NCBI RefSeq assembly: GCF_001955715.1
Contig: NZ_CP019239.1
Span: forward strand, 1-64,000
From: Rhodoferax saidenbachensis
GTDB lineage: Bacteria; Pseudomonadota; Gammaproteobacteria; Burkholderiales; Burkholderiaceae_C
Direction of reading: 5' to 3'
DNA length: 64,000 bases
This document shows, in pieces, positions 24,223 through 32,176 of the stretch (its first letter is position 1; each line of letters starts with the position of its first letter). The notes below the pieces were generated by a model. It was not told where the DNA came from, searched no databases, and was given only the letters and a program-made list of their open reading frames with translations. The translations under genes and the position numbers were made by a program.

Positions 24223-25488
24223 TCAAGATGCGGGTGCCCAGACCAATTGCGGCAGCGCCTGGGTGATGGCAGCCCGCTCGCGTTTGGGTACAGGCCGCAG
24301 GTTGCTTGCCACCCACTGGGCGCGCTCCAGGTTGATGCTGCCACGCGCCTTCCAGCGCTGGGCTTCCAGGGCCGGGTTGTGCAGCATGGCGGCCAGCCAC
24401 ACGGCCTGGGCGGCGCTGAGCTGGTCGGTGCGTTTGCCAAAGTAGGTGTGGGCGGCTGCCTGCGCGCCGCAAATGGTGGCACCCCAGGGCGCGTGGTCCA
24501 GGTACAGGCGCAGGATGCGCGCCTTGCCCAAGGTTTGTTCCATCTCCACCGCGTAGAGCAGTTCGCGCAGCTTGCGCACGGGGGAGCGATCGCCGCCCGT
24601 GACCAGCAGCTTGGCCACTTGTTGCGACAAGGTGCTGGCGCCACGCAGAGTGGCGTCTTCGGCCTGGTTGCTGCGCAGAGCCTTGTTCATTTCCACCAGG
24701 TCGTAGCCGGGGTGTTCGTAAAAGCGCTGGTCTTCTGCGGCCAGCACGGCGCGTGCCAGCAAGCTGTCACTGCGCACATTGGCCCGCGCCATGGCGACGG
24801 GCAGGCCCCGGTTGCACTGGCTCTGCGCCTGCGTCCAGGCTTCGGTGCCCAGACCCTGCACGGCCATGCCGCTGATGCGCGGTTGCACGCTCAGTTTTTT
24901 GCTGGGCAGGTCCAGCGTGGCATGGAGTGCAAACGTACCTTCCATCTGTGCCTGTGCCATCTCGGGGATGGCGTGGGCGAACAGTGCGTAGCCATCGGCC
25001 ACCGGGGTGTCGGGCACATCGATGTGCAGCGTGATGCCGGTAGGGCGCAGCGTGCCTTTCCAGGTGGCCGACACGGCGCCGCTGTGCAGCGTGCCGCGCA
25101 GTTCGGTGGCGTTGCGGCGTACGGTCATGCGCACGTCTTGCAGGCGCAGCGGCTCGCCACCCCAACTGCTGCTGCGCAGCGTGCAAGGCTGGCAGCGCAG
25201 GCTGAGCTGTTGGCTGGTCTCGTCCCACGCCAGGTGCACATCGCCCAGGCGCGTGGGCAGGGTGCGGCCGTGCAGCTGCTTGGCAATCCAGGGTGTGCTG
25301 CCCCACTGCACGAGTGCTGCCACGCCCACGTCCATGTTGAGCGGCCCAACACGCAAGGTAGTGGCCCAGTCGCCCTGTGCGGGGCGCACGATGGCCCGCG
25401 CCGTGAACAGCAGGGCGCTCAGGCCCAGCATGGCCAGCACCGCGGTAACAACCAGAATCCGGGCCGTGGCCCACAGCAGTTTGCGCAC
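24223..25488 (-). CDS. Biosynthetic peptidoglycan glycosyltransferase (GT51)
   Basis: GT51 enzymes polymerise lipid II into glycan strands. The 421-residue product has one N-terminal transmembrane helix (LLWATARILVVTAVLAMLGL), about 200 residues of uncharacterised beta-rich sequence, then GT51. Motifs are all present: EDQRFYEHPGYD with the catalytic Glu near residue 250, GASTLSQQVAKLL, RKLRELLYAVEME and KARILRLYLD. No transpeptidase domain is present, so it resembles MtgA but is longer. The start is GTG 25488, preceded by AAGGA. It is last in the exosortase gene series, 29 bases after the EpsI-like gene. Confidence 0.88.
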   Translation of the reverse strand: MRKLLWATARILVVTAVLAMLGLSALLFTARAIVRPAQGDWATTLRVGPLNMDVGVAALVQWGSTPWIAKQLHGRTLPTRLGDVHLAWDETSQQLSLRCQPCTLRSSSWGGEPLRLQDVRMTVRRNATELRGTLHSGAVSATWKGTLRPTGITLHIDVPDTPVADGYALFAHAIPEMAQAQMEGTFALHATLDLPSKKLSVQPRISGMAVQGLGTEAWTQAQSQCNRGLPVAMARANVRSDSLLARAVLAAEDQRFYEHPGYDLVEMNKALRSNQAEDATLRGASTLSQQVAKLLVTGGDRSPVRKLRELLYAVEMEQTLGKARILRLYLDHAPWGATICGAQAAAHTYFGKRTDQLSAAQAVWLAAMLHNPALEAQRWKARGSINLERAQWVASNLRPVPKRERAAITQALPQLVWAPAS

Positions 25489-25517
25489 AACATCATCCTT
25501 GCAAGAACACAACAGCG

Positions 25518-26078
25518 TTAGAGGGGTGTGGCCACGGTGATCGCCTTCCACGGGCCGGTGGACTGGCCTGCCACCGAGGCCCAGTACCAGGCCGAGGTGT
25601 CGGTGTAGCCCTGGCCCTGCGCGTCCTCAATGCGTTCGCAGACGCGCACAGCGCGGCCACCGCGATCCGCCACAAAGCAGCGCCAGCGTGCCTGGTTGGC
25701 TTGCACTTCCAGTTGTTCGTTGTGGATGCGGTAGCCCAGGCCGCGGTAGCAGTCCGCAGCGGGGTGGAGCATGCGGGTGGGCCGGGCTACCGTGCGCAGT
25801 ACCAGTACGTTTTTGTCGTCCGTCATACGCGCGACGCTGCCTGGGAAGTGTTTGGCAAAGCGCAGCTCTACTTCGCTCAGCGCCAGCGGGCGCAGCGTTG
25901 CGCCTTGCCACTCTGTTGGCAGCTCTGCAGAGGTCATGGAGGTATTGGCACTAGGTGACGCAGAGCGCTCGGTCATGGCCTGGCCGATGCCCCACAACGC
26001 ACATATCGGCAGCAGCGCGGCCCACAGTGTTTTGTGCAGCACGCGGTTGACAAAGCGGTTACTGAACAAGCCGTTCAT
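25518..26078 (-). CDS. EpsI-like exosortase-associated protein
   Basis: The 186-residue product has one N-terminal hydrophobic helix (TLWAALLPICALWGIGQAM) and a soluble domain with LPTEWQGATLRPLALSEVE (shown in part) and HPAADCYRGLGYRI, which corresponds to the conserved H-x(4)-C-x(3)-G-W/Y region of EpsI-domain proteins. These accompany exosortases, sometimes fused to them. The start overlaps the end of the exosortase gene by 4 bases. It is part of the exosortase set at 24.2-29.1 kb. Confidence 0.8.
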   Translation of the reverse strand: MNGLFSNRFVNRVLHKTLWAALLPICALWGIGQAMTERSASPSANTSMTSAELPTEWQGATLRPLALSEVELRFAKHFPGSVARMTDDKNVLVLRTVARPTRMLHPAADCYRGLGYRIHNEQLEVQANQARWRCFVADRGGRAVRVCERIEDAQGQGYTDTSAWYWASVAGQSTGPWKAITVATPL

Positions 26079-26929
26079 ATCGCACGCTCCTGACGTGCCA
26101 TGGTCCGGGCAATGCCGCTGCAGACGAGCGCCAACACCATCAGCCCAATCGCGTCGTGGCCCCAGGTCGGCAAGTGATTGCCAGACGCCTGCGCCGCGAC
26201 CAACACCGTGTTGCGCAGCACATTGCCCAGCAGCACCAGCGCGCCGACGACAGGCAGACGCAGCAGGAAAGCACGGTTGCTGCGCTGTGTCGCCAGTGCC
26301 ACCACACACGCCGTGAAGTAACCCAGCCACACCATCTGCACGCCCGAGCACGGTGCATCCACGATGATGAGCTGACCATCCACGACCAGGCTGCTGCCGG
26401 TGCGCTCGGCTATAAAGCCGAGTGACAACAACCAGCGGCTGGTCTCTGCCGTCACCACGCGCAGCGGGAAGCCCGCGTAGAACTGCAGCGATGCCAGCAA
26501 CGGCAATGACAACACCGACAGCCCCCACACTGGCGCACTGGACACGCGCGCTGGCAAAAAGGCCAAAAGCCCCGCTGCCAGACTCAAGAGACCGATAAGG
26601 GCCACCAACAGATCCGGCAACTGGTTGTGCAACGCGGTGGTGAGTACGGCACCGGTCAAAGCGGCGGCTTGTAAACCTAGACGTGGTGCGGCACGCAGTT
26701 GTTTGCGGTGCGTCCACAGCACCACTGCCAATGCGCCCAAGGCCAGCGCGCCCAGCGGGTCGTCCGAGCCATCGACCATACGCTGGCCCATCCACCACCA
26801 GGTGGGCCACAGCGCCAGGGCCAGCAGGGCCAGCCAGCGCCATTCGGGCGTCGTGTCCAGCGCGATGCCAAAGCGTACAAAGCCCGGTATGTGCAGCAGA
26901 CGATGCAATGGGGAATGTGTGTTTTCCAC
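26075..26929 (-). CDS. Exosortase (PEP-CTERM sorting transpeptidase)
   Basis: Exosortases are integral membrane cysteine proteases or transpeptidases that process PEP-CTERM tails. The 284-residue product has about eight hydrophobic helices. The catalytic set is visible: Cys in DAPCSGVQ near residue 193, Arg in GNVLRNTVL near 237 and His in WGHDAIGL near 257. GTG 26929 follows AAGGA by 8 bases; the upstream in-frame reading comes from a REP-like repeat. I cannot assign the Xrt subtype. The only PEP-CTERM protein in the window is encoded next to it. Confidence 0.9.
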   Translation of the reverse strand: MENTHSPLHRLLHIPGFVRFGIALDTTPEWRWLALLALALWPTWWWMGQRMVDGSDDPLGALALGALAVVLWTHRKQLRAAPRLGLQAAALTGAVLTTALHNQLPDLLVALIGLLSLAAGLLAFLPARVSSAPVWGLSVLSLPLLASLQFYAGFPLRVVTAETSRWLLSLGFIAERTGSSLVVDGQLIIVDAPCSGVQMVWLGYFTACVVALATQRSNRAFLLRLPVVGALVLLGNVLRNTVLVAAQASGNHLPTWGHDAIGLMVLALVCSGIARTMARQERAI

Positions 26930-26960
26930 TTTCAGTTTCCTTGGTTCGGCGCGGCAATAA

Positions 26961-27010
26961 CCGTTCGGGCTGAGCTTGTCGAAGCCCTTCGACAGGCTCA
27001 GGGTGAACGG
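26961..27010 (-). repeat. REP-like palindrome, copy 1
   Basis: CCGTTCGGGCTGAGCTTGTC, GAAG, then CTTCGACAGGCTCAGGG and GAACGG form a long hairpin between the VIT/VWA gene and the exosortase gene. Related copies are at 44748 and 52770. Its presence inside the operon may affect relative expression of the two genes. Confidence 0.85.
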
Positions 27011-27017
27011 AATAGGT

Positions 27018-29126
27018 TTAGCTGGTGTAGTGGTGCGCACGGGTCTGTGCGCGGCGGCGGCGGTGCGCCAGCATGGCCAGCACCGACAACGTCACCAAGA
27101 TCGCACCCCAGGTGGCGGGTTCCGGTGTGCTGGGCACTTCGGCACCCAGGGCCGAGTTCTCCACACCTTGCGGCAGGGGTGAGGGCTGGTTCACGCTGGG
27201 GCTGTCTGCAGGTGCCTTGTTGCGCACCACCTGGTCCACGGCCAGGAAGCTGGTGTACTGGGTCAGCAGGCTGTACTTCAGGCTCAGATCGGTGATGGCG
27301 TCTTTCGCGGCGCTGCCGCCTTCCAGGGCTTCCTGGTCGCTCAGAGCGGCAATGCGGTGGCGGGCCCACAGGTGGCGCAGGGCGGCGGTATCGATCACGT
27401 TGCTGGCATTGACAGGCAGGCTGAAGTGCAGCGGGCCGCTGGCCGAGTTGCCGTCCACGATCAACGTGCCCTTGGCATCACCCTTCCATTTGCCAAACAC
27501 GATGAGCGGGCGCTGGGCCAACAGGTCGGGCAGCTGGCGGGGTTCCACGTCGTACACGTCCAGGCCTTCAAAACGGACCTTCACATTGGTGAGCACGGGG
27601 GAGTCAATCATTTTGCGGAAGCGGGCGGCTTGTTCGGCGGCCTCGGCGGGTTGGGTGATGATGAAGGGTTCGCCCATGCCCGCACGGGCCAGGCCTTCCA
27701 TGAGGTGGCGGTTCACGCTGGAGCCGATGCCGAACGAAAACACGTTGGCGCTGGAGAGGTTGTTGCGCACCAGCTCAAAGGCTTCGCGCTCCACGGTCAC
27801 ATAACCATCGGTCACCACCACCACGGTGCGTGACACATCGGCGTTCTTGGGCTGGGCATACACGCGCTTGAGCGCAGGGATCAGCTCGGTGCTGCCACCG
27901 CCGCCTTCCTTGTCGATGGTGCGGATAGCTTGGTCGATGTTCGCCTTGGTGGCGGGCACCGACGTGGGGTTCAGGAAGTTGTTGCTGCCCGAAAACAGCA
28001 GCACGTTGAAGGTGTCGCTGGGGCGCAGGCCGCCAATCAGCTCGCGCAACACGCCTTTGGCCGTGTCCAGCGGAAAGCCGTGCATGGAGCCTGAGATGTC
28101 CACCACAAAGATGTATTCGCGCGGCGTGATGGCCGTTGCAGCGGGGGCCTTGGGTGGCTCCACCATGGCGAGGAAGAAGTTCTCGTCCTGGCCTTTGTAG
28201 AGCATCACACCGGTCTCGATCTTGTCGCCGGCCAGGCGGTAGTTCAGGATGAAGTCACGGTTGTTGGTGGGCTCGGCCGTGGGGTTCAGCCCCACCACGG
28301 TGGCACCGCCCTGTTCGGTGTAGCTGCTGATGGTGTGCGAGCTGGAGCGCACTTCTTTCACACCAATGGGCGTGTTCAGCGTCACATGGATATCAAACGC
28401 AGGCGCGGCAGCGCTGGTAGGCGTGTTCTGGCCCTGGGGCAGATAGGGCTGGGCTACCCAGGTCGCGTTGGCTTGTGAACTCTGAGGGCTGTTGTAGCGC
28501 GGGCCCACGACGGTGGGGAAGACGAACTGGTAGTTGCCATCGGTGGGCAACAGCAGCTCGGTGTAGCGCAGCTCCACCTTCACGTCGTCGCCGGGCATGA
28601 TGTTGGCCACGTTCATCTGGAACACATTGGGCAGGTGCTGCTCCAGCAGCGCGGCGGTCTTGCCTTCCTGCTTGGCGGCGTCGTATTCGATCTTGGCCTG
28701 CTGCTTCTCGCGGATCTTGGCGGTGATCAGGCGGTCCGCCAGGCGCACGTTCATGCCATGCACCGCCGCACGTGTGGAGCCGGGGAATACGTACTTGGCC
28801 TCGATGGCGCGCTGGCCCTCGTTCTTGTAGGTCTGCACCACGGTCACGTCGGCAATCACGCCGCTGACCTTCACGTTCACCTGGGTGGACTTGAGCGGCA
28901 ACTGGTCCACACCAGGGTTGTCGCTCTTCACGAAGAAGTAGGGGCTCTCGGTTTTAAGCCGGGGCGCCGCGTCGCGGTCTTGCGCGTGCGCCGGGGGGCT
29001 GATGGCCAGCGCTACAAAGCAGGCGGCAGACAGCGTGGTGGTGGCCAGCCAGAGCCAGCGCGACAGTCGTGCGGGGGGCTCAGTGGTGGCGATGTCGGGG
29101 GCCGTGTGGGTAGCGGCAAGTGCCAT
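27018..29126 (-). CDS. VIT and VWA domain protein with C-terminal PEP-CTERM sorting tail
   Basis: The 702-residue product has an N-terminal hydrophobic export segment (about 23-47, ending SPPAHAQ), a VIT domain (about 60-190), and a von Willebrand A domain with the metal-binding MIDAS motif DISGSMHG near residue 343. A tail of the form TPEPATWGAILVTL...HRRRR then follows: PEP, a hydrophobic helix and an arginine cluster, which is a PEP-CTERM signal. It is thus a surface or membrane protein processed by the exosortase encoded next. VIT/VWA proteins resemble inter-alpha-trypsin inhibitor heavy chains and are typical sortase targets. Three CreB half-sites lie 90-116 bases upstream. Confidence 0.92.
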   Translation of the reverse strand: MALAATHTAPDIATTEPPARLSRWLWLATTTLSAACFVALAISPPAHAQDRDAAPRLKTESPYFFVKSDNPGVDQLPLKSTQVNVKVSGVIADVTVVQTYKNEGQRAIEAKYVFPGSTRAAVHGMNVRLADRLITAKIREKQQAKIEYDAAKQEGKTAALLEQHLPNVFQMNVANIMPGDDVKVELRYTELLLPTDGNYQFVFPTVVGPRYNSPQSSQANATWVAQPYLPQGQNTPTSAAAPAFDIHVTLNTPIGVKEVRSSSHTISSYTEQGGATVVGLNPTAEPTNNRDFILNYRLAGDKIETGVMLYKGQDENFFLAMVEPPKAPAATAITPREYIFVVDISGSMHGFPLDTAKGVLRELIGGLRPSDTFNVLLFSGSNNFLNPTSVPATKANIDQAIRTIDKEGGGGSTELIPALKRVYAQPKNADVSRTVVVVTDGYVTVEREAFELVRNNLSSANVFSFGIGSSVNRHLMEGLARAGMGEPFIITQPAEAAEQAARFRKMIDSPVLTNVKVRFEGLDVYDVEPRQLPDLLAQRPLIVFGKWKGDAKGTLIVDGNSASGPLHFSLPVNASNVIDTAALRHLWARHRIAALSDQEALEGGSAAKDAITDLSLKYSLLTQYTSFLAVDQVVRNKAPADSPSVNQPSPLPQGVENSALGAEVPSTPEPATWGAILVTLSVLAMLAHRRRRAQTRAHHYTS

Positions 29127-29215
29127 GGGGCTTCTCCAGTCGGCGTGCGGTATTGCACGTTGAGGAGAGCATCCCGCCCAGGTGAGAAGTCAGTTTGAAG
29201 GGGTTAGGGGCCTGT

Positions 29216-29242
29216 GTGAAGTCTGTGTGAAATGGGGGTGAA
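29216..29242 (-). promoter_or_regulatory. Triple CreB-binding tag upstream of the VIT/VWA gene
   Basis: On the minus strand the sequence reads TTCAC three times with 6 bases between each, so two overlapping matches to the E. coli CreB tag TTCAC-N6-TTCAC. On the plus strand GTGAA begins at 29216, 29227 and 29238. The 11-base period keeps the half-sites on one DNA face. The site precedes the VIT/VWA start codon by 90 bases and points in its direction. Confidence 0.75.
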
Positions 29243-29277
29243 GTGAGCGATGTTCGACAGAGCTGTTTGTAAAGCAG

Positions 29278-29856
29278 CTAGTGCGATTCCGTACGTGTCC
29301 TAAGCAGCTCTATCAATATCTCTTTGGCACGATCGGTTATTTGAAATTGCAGATTTAGAAGGCAACGATAAGCGGCAAGTAGAACGATCGTTTTTGGACT
29401 TCGTGAAAGCGTGGCAGAGTATTCTTTCTCTCCATTCTCTAGACTGCATATGGCGTAGCCAAACTCTGTTTTGAATTTTTTCAGATCAGAAGCAGTCAAA
29501 CCGGCAATGTGGTTTGCGAAGGTAAAAGTTACGTTGTGTACCTTGTGAACCAATTGATTTCTCAATTCAGACAATCCACGTAAAAAGGCTACGTGTTCTT
29601 TATCTATCAGACCAAGTGCTCTAGCAAAAGCAACTTTGCCCGATCTGGTGTTGTTGAAATCGAGGTTTGCAATAGCGTCTGCTGCTGCTTCAGCGCCCAG
29701 GCGACGAACAATCAGTGAACCAAGTACTGCTTCGAATAGTGCATGAGTTTTGATAACAAAAGACCAATCAGAGTCATGCAATAGGTCGTCTAAGAATGTT
29801 GGAGAAAGACCAACAGATTCAAGCAACGCTTCAACACTAGGATTTGTGGTTGTCAT
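29278..29856 (-). CDS. HEPN-like hypothetical protein
   Basis: The 192-residue product is all-helical by appearance and contains RNQLVH near residue 98, a match to the HEPN RNase motif R-x4-6-H. It follows WSFVIKTHALFEAVLGSLI and FARALGLIDKEHVAFLRGLSEL (key parts ALFEAVL and LRGLSEL), a layout like MltR or abortive-infection HEPN proteins. Composition is clearly AT-richer than the flanks, which suggests a late insertion between creC and the VIT/VWA gene. No partner antitoxin is seen. ATG 29856 is preceded by AGGTC. Nuclease activity is only a possibility. Confidence 0.65.
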   Translation of the reverse strand: MTTTNPSVEALLESVGLSPTFLDDLLHDSDWSFVIKTHALFEAVLGSLIVRRLGAEAAADAIANLDFNNTRSGKVAFARALGLIDKEHVAFLRGLSELRNQLVHKVHNVTFTFANHIAGLTASDLKKFKTEFGYAICSLENGEKEYSATLSRSPKTIVLLAAYRCLLNLQFQITDRAKEILIELLRTRTESH

Positions 29857-29891
29857 GATGGTTGACCTATTAGTTACGTTTGAATTCCACT

Positions 29892-31358
29892 TCAATCAGT
29901 GCGGCGCCGTAGCCACAACATCGCTGCAGCGCCCGTACCCTCAGATTCCGGTCGATTACCCAACTCAATGAGCCCCCGGTGCAATGAAGCAATCTCTTTC
30001 ACAAAGCTCAACCCCAGCCCCGTGCTCTTCTTCTTGGAGTGCGGGCGGGCCAATGAATAGAACTTCTCAAACACCTTGTCCTGCGCGTAGCCGGGGATGC
30101 CTGGGCCCTGGTCGCGCACGGTGATCTGGGCCCAGCGGCCTTGCACTTGCAGGCCCAGTTCGATGTGGCCGCCCTCGGGGGAAAAGTCCAGCGCGTTGTC
30201 CAGCAGGTTGCTGACCGCGCGGCGCAGCAGAAAAGGGTCGGCCTCCACGGTCACGTCTTCGCTGGCGGCCACGGTGATGCGGCAGCCGCGCTGGGTGGCC
30301 ACGCCGTGGGAGGCGTGGGCCAGTTCGTCCAGCAGCGGCAGCAGGGCCACGGGTTGGGCGTTGTCGAGCACGCGGCGGGTCTCCAGCGCAGTGAGCTCCA
30401 TCATGCGGTCCACCATCTCCTGGATGCGCTGGGTCTCGCGCTGGATGTTGGTGAGGAAGCGTTGGCGCTGGGCTTCTTCCATGGGCTCTTGCAGCAGCTC
30501 GGCCGCGCCGCGGATGGCGGACAGCGGGCTCTTCACTTCGTGCGTCAGCGTCTGCACATAGTCGGCCACATAGTTGCGCCCGGCCAGCGCGTCACGCATC
30601 TCGTCGTAGGCGGCGCGCATCAGGTCCCAGGCGCGGCGCAGCAGGCGGCCGGGGTGGAAGCCCTGTTGGGCCTTGATGTAACGCGCGTAGTCGGCGATCA
30701 GGCCAAAGGGCCGCACCAGCCACATGGACACCATGACGGCCAGCACCAGCACGGCCAGTACCGAAATGAGCCCCGCGTAGAGCGTGCGGCTGCGCGCGGC
30801 GGCCACGAACTGACCAAAGGTTTGTACCGGTTTGCCCACGGTGATGGTGCCGATGATTTCGCCGCTGCCGGCGCCCTGCGCATTGCTGGCCCAGCGCACG
30901 GGGGCGGCCATGTACATGACGGCGGAGTTGGGGTCACCGGGGATGTCCAGTGTGGTGCGGGCGCCGTATTCGCCCTTGAGCGTGAGTTGCACGTCGCGCC
31001 ACTGCGAGAAGTCTTTGCCCTGCGACTGGCCCGTGGAGTCGTACAGCACGGTGCCGTTGCGGTCGGTCACATAGGCACGCAGTTCGACCTTGGTCTTGTT
31101 GACACTGAAGATCTGGGCGCTGAATTCGCGTGCGTAGGCAGCCTTGAACAGGTTGTCTAGGCGCGCTGTGTCGATGGCGCCGTCGCGCACGTCCTGCTCG
31201 ATGAGGGTGGCTAGCAGTTGCGAGGTTTCTACCAGCGACTCTTCGGTCGATTCACGGTAGCGGGGGTCCAGGTCGCTGACCACGCGGTACAACACCGCGG
31301 CCATGCCTATTGCGTAAATAAGCAATAGCCCGAAGAAGATGCGGCTTCTCTTAGACAT
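29892..31358 (-). CDS. creC: Two-component sensor histidine kinase CreC
   Basis: CreC senses envelope or metabolic state and phosphorylates CreB. The 488-residue product has TM1 (about 7-27), a periplasmic sensor domain with DLDPRYRESTEESLVETSQLLA (parts RYRESTEESLVE) typical of CreC, TM2 (about 190-215), HAMP, the phospho-acceptor His in LTHEVKSPLSAIRG near residue 272 and an ATPase domain with NLLDNALDF, DQGPGIPG and STGLGLSF. The start is ATG 31358; a GTG 18 bases earlier falls in a repeat. It lies 78 bases after creB. Confidence 0.88.
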   Translation of the reverse strand: MSKRSRIFFGLLLIYAIGMAAVLYRVVSDLDPRYRESTEESLVETSQLLATLIEQDVRDGAIDTARLDNLFKAAYAREFSAQIFSVNKTKVELRAYVTDRNGTVLYDSTGQSQGKDFSQWRDVQLTLKGEYGARTTLDIPGDPNSAVMYMAAPVRWASNAQGAGSGEIIGTITVGKPVQTFGQFVAAARSRTLYAGLISVLAVLVLAVMVSMWLVRPFGLIADYARYIKAQQGFHPGRLLRRAWDLMRAAYDEMRDALAGRNYVADYVQTLTHEVKSPLSAIRGAAELLQEPMEEAQRQRFLTNIQRETQRIQEMVDRMMELTALETRRVLDNAQPVALLPLLDELAHASHGVATQRGCRITVAASEDVTVEADPFLLRRAVSNLLDNALDFSPEGGHIELGLQVQGRWAQITVRDQGPGIPGYAQDKVFEKFYSLARPHSKKKSTGLGLSFVKEIASLHRGLIELGNRPESEGTGAAAMLWLRRRTD

Positions 31359-31361
31359 GTG

Positions 31362-31400
31362 GCCCCCACGCTCCACCGCTGCGCGGGTCGCTGCCCCCCG
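31362..31400. repeat. GC-rich dispersed repeat, copy 1 (creB-creC gap)
   Basis: The 38-base sequence starting GCCCCCACGCTCCACCGCTG recurs exactly at 61485-61522. Here it is followed by CGATGGGGCC, which can pair back with the GCCCCCC end, so a hairpin forms between creB and creC. Confidence 0.85.
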
Positions 31401-31436
31401 ATGGGGCCTTCGCGCCTAGGGGCTGCCCGTCGGCGC

Positions 31437-32159
31437 TCATGTCGGTGTGGCCGGCAGTTCTTCGCTCAGCGCGTAGCCGCTGCCGCGCAGGGTGCGGATG
31501 GGGTCGTGGCCGGGGGCGACGAGTTTGAGTTTGGCGCGCAGGGTTTTGATGTGGGCGTCCACCGTGCGGTCAAAGCTGTCGTTGTTGTCGCCCCAGACCT
31601 GCAGCAGCAGTTCGTCGCGCGTGAACACGCGGCCAGGCTTTTGCACCAACAGGCGCAGCACGCCGTATTCGTAGCGCGACAGCTCCAGCAGCTTGCCGTA
31701 GAAGCGGATCTGGTGGCGCTCTTCGTCCAACGCCCAGATGGCGGTGGCGTTTGCGACCGGTGCTGTGCTGGCAACAGGCCGCGCACTGCGGCGCAGGATG
31801 GTGCGCACACGAGCTACCAGCTCGCGTGGCGAAAAGGGTTTGGCGATGTAGTCATCGGCGCCCAGCTCCAGCCCCACCACGCGGTCGATCTCGTCGCTGC
31901 GTGCGGTGAGGAACAGCATGGGCACCTGGTTGCCGCCGGGCAGGGCTTGCAGGCGGCGGAAGAGCTCGAAGCCGTTGAGGTCGGGCAGGCCCACGTCCAG
32001 CACGGCCAATGCGGGCAGCTCGGCGCTGAACAGGCGAATAGCGTCCTCCGCCGTGCTTGCCCATACAGGCGCAAAGCCGTCGGTGGACAACACGTATTGC
32101 AGGGTGTCGGCAATGCCGGATTCGTCTTCAACAAGGAGGATGCGCGGTTTCAGGGCCAT
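31437..32159 (-). CDS. creB: Response regulator CreB
   Basis: The 240-residue product is an OmpR/PhoB-class regulator. The receiver domain shows ILLVEDE, the phosphorylated Asp in LAVLDVGLPD near residue 55 and KPFSPREL. The C-terminal winged helix has LSRYEYGVLRLLVQKPGRVFTRDELL (parts LSRYEYGVL and GRVFTRDEL) and HIKTLRAKL. Its partner creC is directly downstream. In E. coli CreB binds TTCAC repeats, and three are present upstream of the VIT/VWA gene. creA and creD are not in the window. An ATG at 32168 is an alternative start. Confidence 0.9.
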   Translation of the reverse strand: MALKPRILLVEDESGIADTLQYVLSTDGFAPVWASTAEDAIRLFSAELPALAVLDVGLPDLNGFELFRRLQALPGGNQVPMLFLTARSDEIDRVVGLELGADDYIAKPFSPRELVARVRTILRRSARPVASTAPVANATAIWALDEERHQIRFYGKLLELSRYEYGVLRLLVQKPGRVFTRDELLLQVWGDNNDSFDRTVDAHIKTLRAKLKLVAPGHDPIRTLRGSGYALSEELPATPT

Positions 32160-32176
32160 GGGGCGCATTGTGGCGC

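Follow-up and report, generated by a model that had tools for sequence, protein, structure and literature searches.

Related sorting systems and the xrtQ operon

To our knowledge, the acceptor and the purpose of protein sorting by bacterial exosortases are poorly known, partly because many genomes hold dozens of substrates. PEP-CTERM/EpsH (XrtA) systems serve many substrates, and PMC1569441 describes a site with a sigma-54 motif upstream of their genes. Class GN sortase systems (TIGR03785, TIGR03787, TIGR03788), which occur in marine proteobacteria, combine one sorting enzyme with a VIT/VWA target and a nearby two-component pair, while the XrtN VIT-domain proteins (TIGR04477) and MSEP-CTERM (TIGR04286) likewise represent VIT-domain targets tied by name to an exosortase system. 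The CreBC/BlrAB regulon is marked by the cre/blr tag TTCAC-N6-TTCAC (PMC4689548), and loss of PBP4 activates CreBC and raises creD in Pseudomonas aeruginosa (PMC2654508). Here we describe a locus of Rhodoferax saidenbachensis that resembles each of these systems in part. It lies within the first 64,000 nucleotides of contig NZ_CP019239.1 (assembly GCF_001955715.1), the stretch referred to below as the window. At 24223..32159, a minus-strand set comprises creB, creC, a VIT/VWA gene whose product has a PEP-CTERM tail, an exosortase gene, an EpsI-like gene and a gene for a peptidoglycan glycosyltransferase of family GT51. We judge it likely that the last four genes form an operon for a one-enzyme, one-substrate exosortase system controlled by CreB.

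These six genes and their common strand had been named in a sequence-only reading of the same DNA, and profile scores for the proteins of the window bore them out, with coordinates within a few bases of those given before. That gene list was incomplete in one respect, as a gene of 205 residues between creC and the VIT gene had been overlooked. The exosortase scored 393 bits against the exosortase Q model (NF012182, cut-off 270 bits) and covered the whole model, positions 1-256; a named subtype therefore already covers the enzyme, a matter on which the sequence-only reading had been undecided. That model names the enzyme only; what is described below of the genes that share its operon, of the CreB box and of the pairing with one substrate is a result of the present work.

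The parallel with class GN sortases drawn in the sequence-only reading held for the target and failed for the regulators. The VIT/VWA protein is related to TIGR03788, at 429 bits, below the cut-off of 552. The regulators scored 106 bits against TIGR03785 (cut-off 612) and 131 bits against TIGR03787 (cut-off 336), and by score they are instead CreB and CreC rather than a dedicated pair. Where class GN systems have a sortase, this locus has an exosortase and a PEP-CTERM tail; no class GN sortase was found beside the target, whose neighbour is the exosortase, sortases in other parts of the genome being outside the search. The target also matched neither TIGR04477 (cut-off 250 bits) nor TIGR04286 at E 0.01, and on these scores we reject a placement of the protein in the target family of either the class GN sortases or XrtN.

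The enzyme subtype, the CreBC regulators and the VIT-domain targets of other exosortases (XrtN and MSEP-CTERM in NCBIfam) are already known. We know of no CreB or GT51 link for the XrtN and MSEP-CTERM systems, and our literature search returned no paper on them with such links. Neither did it return a paper that joins CreB with exosortases or names exosortase Q, although the 2012 exosortase survey may contain an earlier mention. The locus shares its regulators and its TTCAC-N6-TTCAC box with the CreBC/BlrAB regulon, and creD carries the box here too; a sorting operon as a CreBC target was absent from those parts of the CreBC/BlrAB literature that were examined.

Conservation of the operon

From 179 relatives that were confirmed in named genomes, the best 80 were taken for a comparison of gene order, a sample in which distant relatives are under-represented. 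Its labels include Rhodoferax, Curvibacter, Variovorax, Polaromonas, Caenimonas, Ramlibacter, Xylophilus, Xenophilus, Ottowia, Saezia and metagenome-assembled genomes labelled Azoarcus, among others. Identity thresholds were of our own choice: 55% for CreB, 50% for CreC, 45% for the VIT protein, 33% for GT51, and 30% for the EpsI-like protein, XrtQ and CreD. This comparison, which the sequence-only reading had proposed as a check, showed the VIT gene directly upstream of xrtQ in all 77 testable loci and the EpsI-like gene directly downstream in all 77, followed by GT51 in 64 of 74. CreB or CreC lay upstream on the same strand in 61 of the 68 loci with at least 9 kb of upstream sequence, and in 34 of 68 creD stood divergent, head to head, with the VIT gene. 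XrtQ was also sought on plasmids, where no match was found.

The Cys, Arg and His that we take to be the active-site residues of exosortases were present in 81 of 81 aligned XrtQ rows, and no internal stop occurred in any of the 10 exosortase matches from a sample of 399 genomes of the order (Burkholderiales). The ratio of nonsynonymous to synonymous divergence (dN/dS) of XrtQ was 0.09 to 0.17 against three relatives. Over five genes and three relatives, pairwise dN was 0.02 to 0.23 and dS 0.31 to 0.95, with dN well under dS in all 15 computed pairs, which indicated that these five genes are under purifying selection. According to PMC1569441, single PEP-CTERM proteins may be remnants, and the operon could on that basis be the decaying residue of a larger PEP-CTERM system. 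The selection on its genes and the intact active-site residues led us to reject this, and with the 10 exosortase matches free of internal stops and the same one-to-one pairing of XrtQ and VIT protein in at least eight named genera, they leave a decaying remnant barely conceivable.

Predicted CreB box upstream of the VIT gene

The VIT start is preceded, at a distance of 90 to 116 bp, by two exact cre tags that overlap each other, in agreement with the tags that had been seen there before. The whole genome, a single contig of 4,264,855 bases, holds five exact tags: two at the operon, one at creD and two inside open frames, named by eye as genes for a LysR-type regulator and a long sensor kinase. 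Outside genes, exact tags were therefore found only at this operon and at creD (2063061-2064441), which lies 2.03 Mb from creBC and whose tag ends about 80 bp before its likely start. A reversed control pattern also occurred five times in the genome; the number alone thus proves nothing, and the argument rests on conserved position. A degenerate cre-like pair lies downstream of the box (Table 1); with as many mismatches as it has, dozens of such pairs should arise in the window by chance.

Position was surveyed in 76 loci with the region upstream of the VIT gene; of the 80, three lacked that region and one lacked the VIT gene. In 72 of the 76, an exact tag was present in the 450 bp before the VIT gene, always in the same orientation, and the other four carried a one-mismatch box there, while the remaining 1,402 kb of these loci contained no other exact tag. 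Control patterns with the wrong spacing of 4, 5, 7 or 8 occurred upstream in 1, 0, 0 and 0 of the 76 loci, and two patterns with scrambled half-sites in 0 and 0. The conservation of the site in relatives thus took the form of one fixed position, and on the strength of this position and the controls we reject chance occurrence of cre tags at the VIT gene. When 35 upstream regions were aligned on their best tag matches, a procedure that by itself enriches the tag letters, no other strongly conserved stretch was seen besides the positions flanking the tag and weak CTTC repeats downstream. Genome-wide, exact tags numbered 1 to 17 in 33 XrtQ-type genomes (R. saidenbachensis included, one Ottowia genome excepted). 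The 5.6 Mb of Caenimonas contained exactly one, which stood at the VIT gene.

The Ottowia genome G417 (locus L079) contained 48 exact tag matches, mostly copies of one repeat, TTCACACTAAATTCAC, several of them as facing pairs. These matches look like a dispersed repeat rather than CreB sites.

CreBC could be a mere neighbour of the operon, the adjacency reflecting synteny that close relatives share for historical reasons, with no control by CreB. The box, however, stayed at the operon where CreBC did not. Two genomes from other families of the order (G168 and G349) kept the four operon genes with CreBC about 15 and 19 kb off; G168 had an exact box 104 bp before the VIT frame, and in G349 creD also had a box of its own. 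At locus L095 (G423), the box was at the operon while CreBC was on another contig. G258, which had no exact box, had a one-mismatch box at the right place. In G349 and G370 the box lay about 1 kb before the VIT gene, and an intervening open frame began 70 to 75 bp after it, so the box still heads the gene group. In two distant loci (G031 and G075), whose exosortases fell below the XrtQ cut-off at 129 and 128 bits, an exact cre tag stood 6 bp and 31 bp, respectively, before the open frame of a different VIT-type target, which suggested that the CreB link may be wider than XrtQ. The box was also confined to this position within the loci and, in R. saidenbachensis, recurred upstream of creD 2 Mb away, and in view of this evidence we regard shared synteny without CreB control as quite improbable.

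The intervening open frame of G349 (L135 4770-5645) and G370 (L137 3914-4921), of about 290 to 335 residues, appeared VIT-like by eye. In G031 (L131 8160-11956) and G075 (L138 8220-11441), the exosortase stood beside a VIT-type protein of 823 and 799 residues, respectively, with a PEP-CTERM-like tail. The G031 target resembled XrtN and MSEP-CTERM targets below their cut-offs, with a TIGR04477 score of 115 against 250.

Co-occurrence with CreBC

Among the 399 genomes of the order, an XrtQ-type match was found in 10, five of them over the cut-off, and CreB over its cut-off in 47. All 10 XrtQ-type genomes carried CreB (hypergeometric P 2e-10, uncorrected for kinship). At most six candidates for XrtQ and seven for CreB were scored per genome, which makes an absence less firm than a presence, and the background of CreB genomes may lie somewhat above 47 of 399. 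When 34 XrtQ-type genomes were tested directly, CreB was over the cut-off in 30, and in three others (G417, G418 and G421, with loci L079, L080 and L093) CreB was found at 61 to 66% identity.

Several observations weigh against a CreB-controlled operon of four genes. Related sequences are not independent, so the counts overstate the statistics. The GT51 gene was not beside the EpsI-like gene in 10 of 74 loci (four metagenome-assembled genomes labelled Azoarcus, two records labelled Betaproteobacteria, and one each labelled Curvibacter, Variovorax, Comamonadaceae and Proteobacteria), and none was found in 18 kb around the distant G031 exosortase. Six of the 68 loci had no CreBC within reach at the thresholds used, and one had it on the other strand; the fragmented genome G411 (locus L054) gave no CreB at E 1e-60. 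Conversely, 37 of the 47 CreB genomes had no XrtQ-type match, and genome-wide tag counts were often no higher than those of the reversed control. The gene set, its conservation, the promoter box, the one detectable substrate, the intact active sites and the purifying selection are established at the level of sequence; CreB binding, cleavage and anchoring are predicted functions, and control of the operon by CreB is itself a prediction of the same kind. The proposal of a single-substrate exosortase system switched by CreBC was upheld in its core, with one exosortase, one PEP-CTERM protein over the cut-off, a conserved gene set and a box. CreBC is, however, not exclusive to the system, as creD has a box and most CreB genomes gave no XrtQ-type match.

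One exosortase and one apparent substrate

The VIT/VWA protein scored 120 bits for its VIT domain (cut-off 26.5) and 60 bits for VWA_3 (cut-off 27), and a search of the whole genome found no VIT domain other than this one. Residues of the putative metal ion-dependent adhesion site (D343, S345, S347, T413 and D440) were present in 80 of 80 aligned rows. Its PEP-CTERM tail scored 16.4 bits by hmmscan, under the cut-off of 20.7, and 21.4 bits, over it, in the whole-genome search; the P-E-P motif was invariant in 79 of 79 relatives and in 80 of 80 aligned rows. The sequence-only reading had held that many PEP-CTERM proteins or further exosortase genes elsewhere in the genome would speak against the pairing. 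The genome was found to have a single exosortase by profile search and one PEP-CTERM protein over the cut-off, the VIT/VWA protein itself, with two other matches below it at E 0.49 and 0.72.

The survey was extended to 32 distinct XrtQ-bearing genomes, with G159 and G409 counted as one genome on account of their identical coordinates. A single exosortase at E 0.001 was found in 21, and two or three exosortase matches in the other 11. Thirteen of the 21 had no PEP-CTERM match at E 0.05 and eight had one, which was the VIT gene in seven and a match below the cut-off in the eighth (G159). Four of these eight matches were over the cut-off, and all four were the VIT gene; an over-cut-off PEP-CTERM outside the VIT gene was thus found in 0 of the 21. 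The Pfam model missed the VIT tail in 14 of the 21 at E 0.05 and is a weak test when used alone.

Since the Pfam model misses many XrtQ-type tails, a tail model was built from 22 of them and run on 21 genomes, namely R. saidenbachensis and 20 of 21 other single-exosortase genomes (G370 was left out). It gave exactly one strong match in each of the 21, at E 4e-8 or better, always in the VIT/VWA frame adjoining xrtQ, and the next-best match anywhere was at E 0.02 or worse. Twelve of the 21 genomes had supplied tails to the model, so the VIT match there holds by construction and the informative part is that no second match appeared. Only 150 candidates were scored in 15 of the 21, and targets very unlike the model tails would be missed. 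XrtQ and the VIT/VWA protein therefore appear, from these profile searches, to be paired as one enzyme and one substrate.

An ordinary PEP-CTERM/EpsH system, with many exported proteins and a part in exopolysaccharide biology, would have the same enzyme superfamily and the same type and layout of tail, and eight of the 32 XrtQ genomes did have 5 to 20 PEP-CTERM matches (G168, G349, G399, G400, G401, G402, G411 and G423). All eight, however, carried a second exosortase of at least 224 bits by the Pfam model, whereas the single-exosortase genomes had no over-cut-off PEP-CTERM beyond the VIT gene and the tail model found one target per genome. Ten flanking open frames were scanned, eight of which matched a family, and no exopolysaccharide gene was among them; upstream, a predicted CreB box takes the place of the sigma-54 motif. 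A many-substrate system was rejected on the genome counts and the tail model, and we consider the ordinary PEP-CTERM/EpsH explanation very improbable.

Proposed mechanism and the role of the glycosyltransferase

In the CreB-controlled system that we favor, CreC would sense an envelope signal, and phosphorylated CreB would bind the TTCAC repeats, spaced by 11 bp, and turn on the operon together with creD. After export, the VIT/VWA protein would be retained in the inner membrane by its C-terminal tail. XrtQ would use its Cys/Arg/His site to cleave close to P-E-P and, as an analogue of archaeosortase A, would pass the newly formed C terminus on to an acceptor. The EpsI-like protein would assist, and GT51 would simultaneously add glycan strands, which could serve repair or belong to the anchoring route. 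Such a compact system for exosortase function, with one enzyme, one apparent substrate, one operon and a predicted switch, occurs in culturable soil genera such as Variovorax, and the operon would give CreBC a concrete envelope output besides creD.

That a peptidoglycan synthase shares its operon with a sorting enzyme suggests a testable acceptor. XrtQ might transfer the VIT/VWA protein to lipid II or another precursor of peptidoglycan, with GT51 polymerising the loaded precursor into the wall. We consider this unlikely; if true, it would be a Gram-negative equivalent of sortase anchoring, induced by CreBC and carried out by an exosortase instead of a sortase. A variant compatible with the favored reading, to which we give roughly an even chance, is that GT51 is simply co-transcribed, serves wall repair as a separate output of the CreB regulon and does not contribute to anchoring, and that the acceptor is a membrane lipid. 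The absence of GT51 from its usual place in 10 of 74 loci and from the G031 locus agrees with this variant, as does the reported lipid anchoring of archaeosortase substrates (PMC7157517). GT51 being the next gene in 64 of 74 loci, with conserved catalytic motifs and a conserved N-terminal region, speaks against it.

The GT51 protein matched the Transgly domain (PF00912) at 144 bits (cut-off 27). The Glu that we presume to be catalytic was present in all 63 rows with a letter at that position, 5 of the 68 GT51 rows having been shortened by frame extraction. A family search found 1,400 proteins at E 1e-40 among 8,000 scored.

The N-terminal region of GT51, of about 240 residues, was conserved and carried a C-x-x-C motif; of the rows with a letter at the respective position, 63 of 64 had the first Cys and 63 of 63 the second. 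It matched no Pfam family, and among 16 members only scattered weak matches were found, one member each.

The EpsI-like assignment is weaker, as the match was confined to the C-terminal part of the XrtT model (Table 1). The same weak XrtT match was found in all seven relatives scanned, and only three residues of the protein were conserved at 97% or more. The start codon of its gene and the stop codon of xrtQ overlap within ATGA, by which the two genes look translationally coupled.

Other features of the locus

Table 1. Features of the creBC-xrtQ locus, in coordinates of the window
Feature	Position	Strand	Remarks
creB, response regulator	31437..32168	-	NF008296, 304 bits (cut-off 273)
creC, sensor kinase	29892..31376	-	NF008312, 578 bits (cut-off 356)
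205-residue gene, no known family	29278..29895	-	42% G+C; lies between creC and the promoter of the operon, probably as a strain-specific insertion
CreB box (predicted)	29216..29242	-	three TTCAC half-sites, spaced by 11 bp, that make up two exact cre tags with an overlap
Degenerate cre-like pair	29184..29199	-	two mismatches; about 32 bp further downstream than the CreB box
VIT/VWA target protein	27018..29126	-	PF08487, PF13768; TIGR03788 under cut-off; probable signal peptide (by eye); PEP-CTERM tail
C-terminal sorting signal of the VIT/VWA protein	27021..27146	-	VPSTPEP, hydrophobic stretch, Arg cluster
xrtQ, exosortase Q	26075..26929	-	NF012182; start taken as GTG at 26929, open frame reaches 27040
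EpsI-like protein	25518..26078	-	XrtT C-terminal region, E 5e-9; ATG overlaps xrtQ stop
GT51 peptidoglycan glycosyltransferase	24223..25551 (open frame)	-	PF00912; true start probably near 25490

In loci L025 and L030, the upstream part of the GT51 frame met a stop at once, which makes a later start likelier for this gene and leaves no clear overlap with the EpsI-like gene. Between the VIT gene and xrtQ (26930-27040), no inverted repeat of 10 bp or longer was found. By impression, the part of the xrtQ open frame that extends upstream here resembles the translation of a short dispersed repeat, presumably akin to one in other Burkholderiales.

The G+C content of the 205-residue gene compares with about 64% for creC and the VIT gene. 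Its product had no Pfam or NCBIfam match at E 0.01, no PADLOC match and only phage-family matches at E 0.013 or worse; among the matches listed in the 80 relatives, there was none by tblastn at E 1e-6 and 30% identity. The gap between creC and the VIT gene ranged from 151 to 3,258 bp in the 12 relatives measured, and this variation suggested that the spot may accept insertions.

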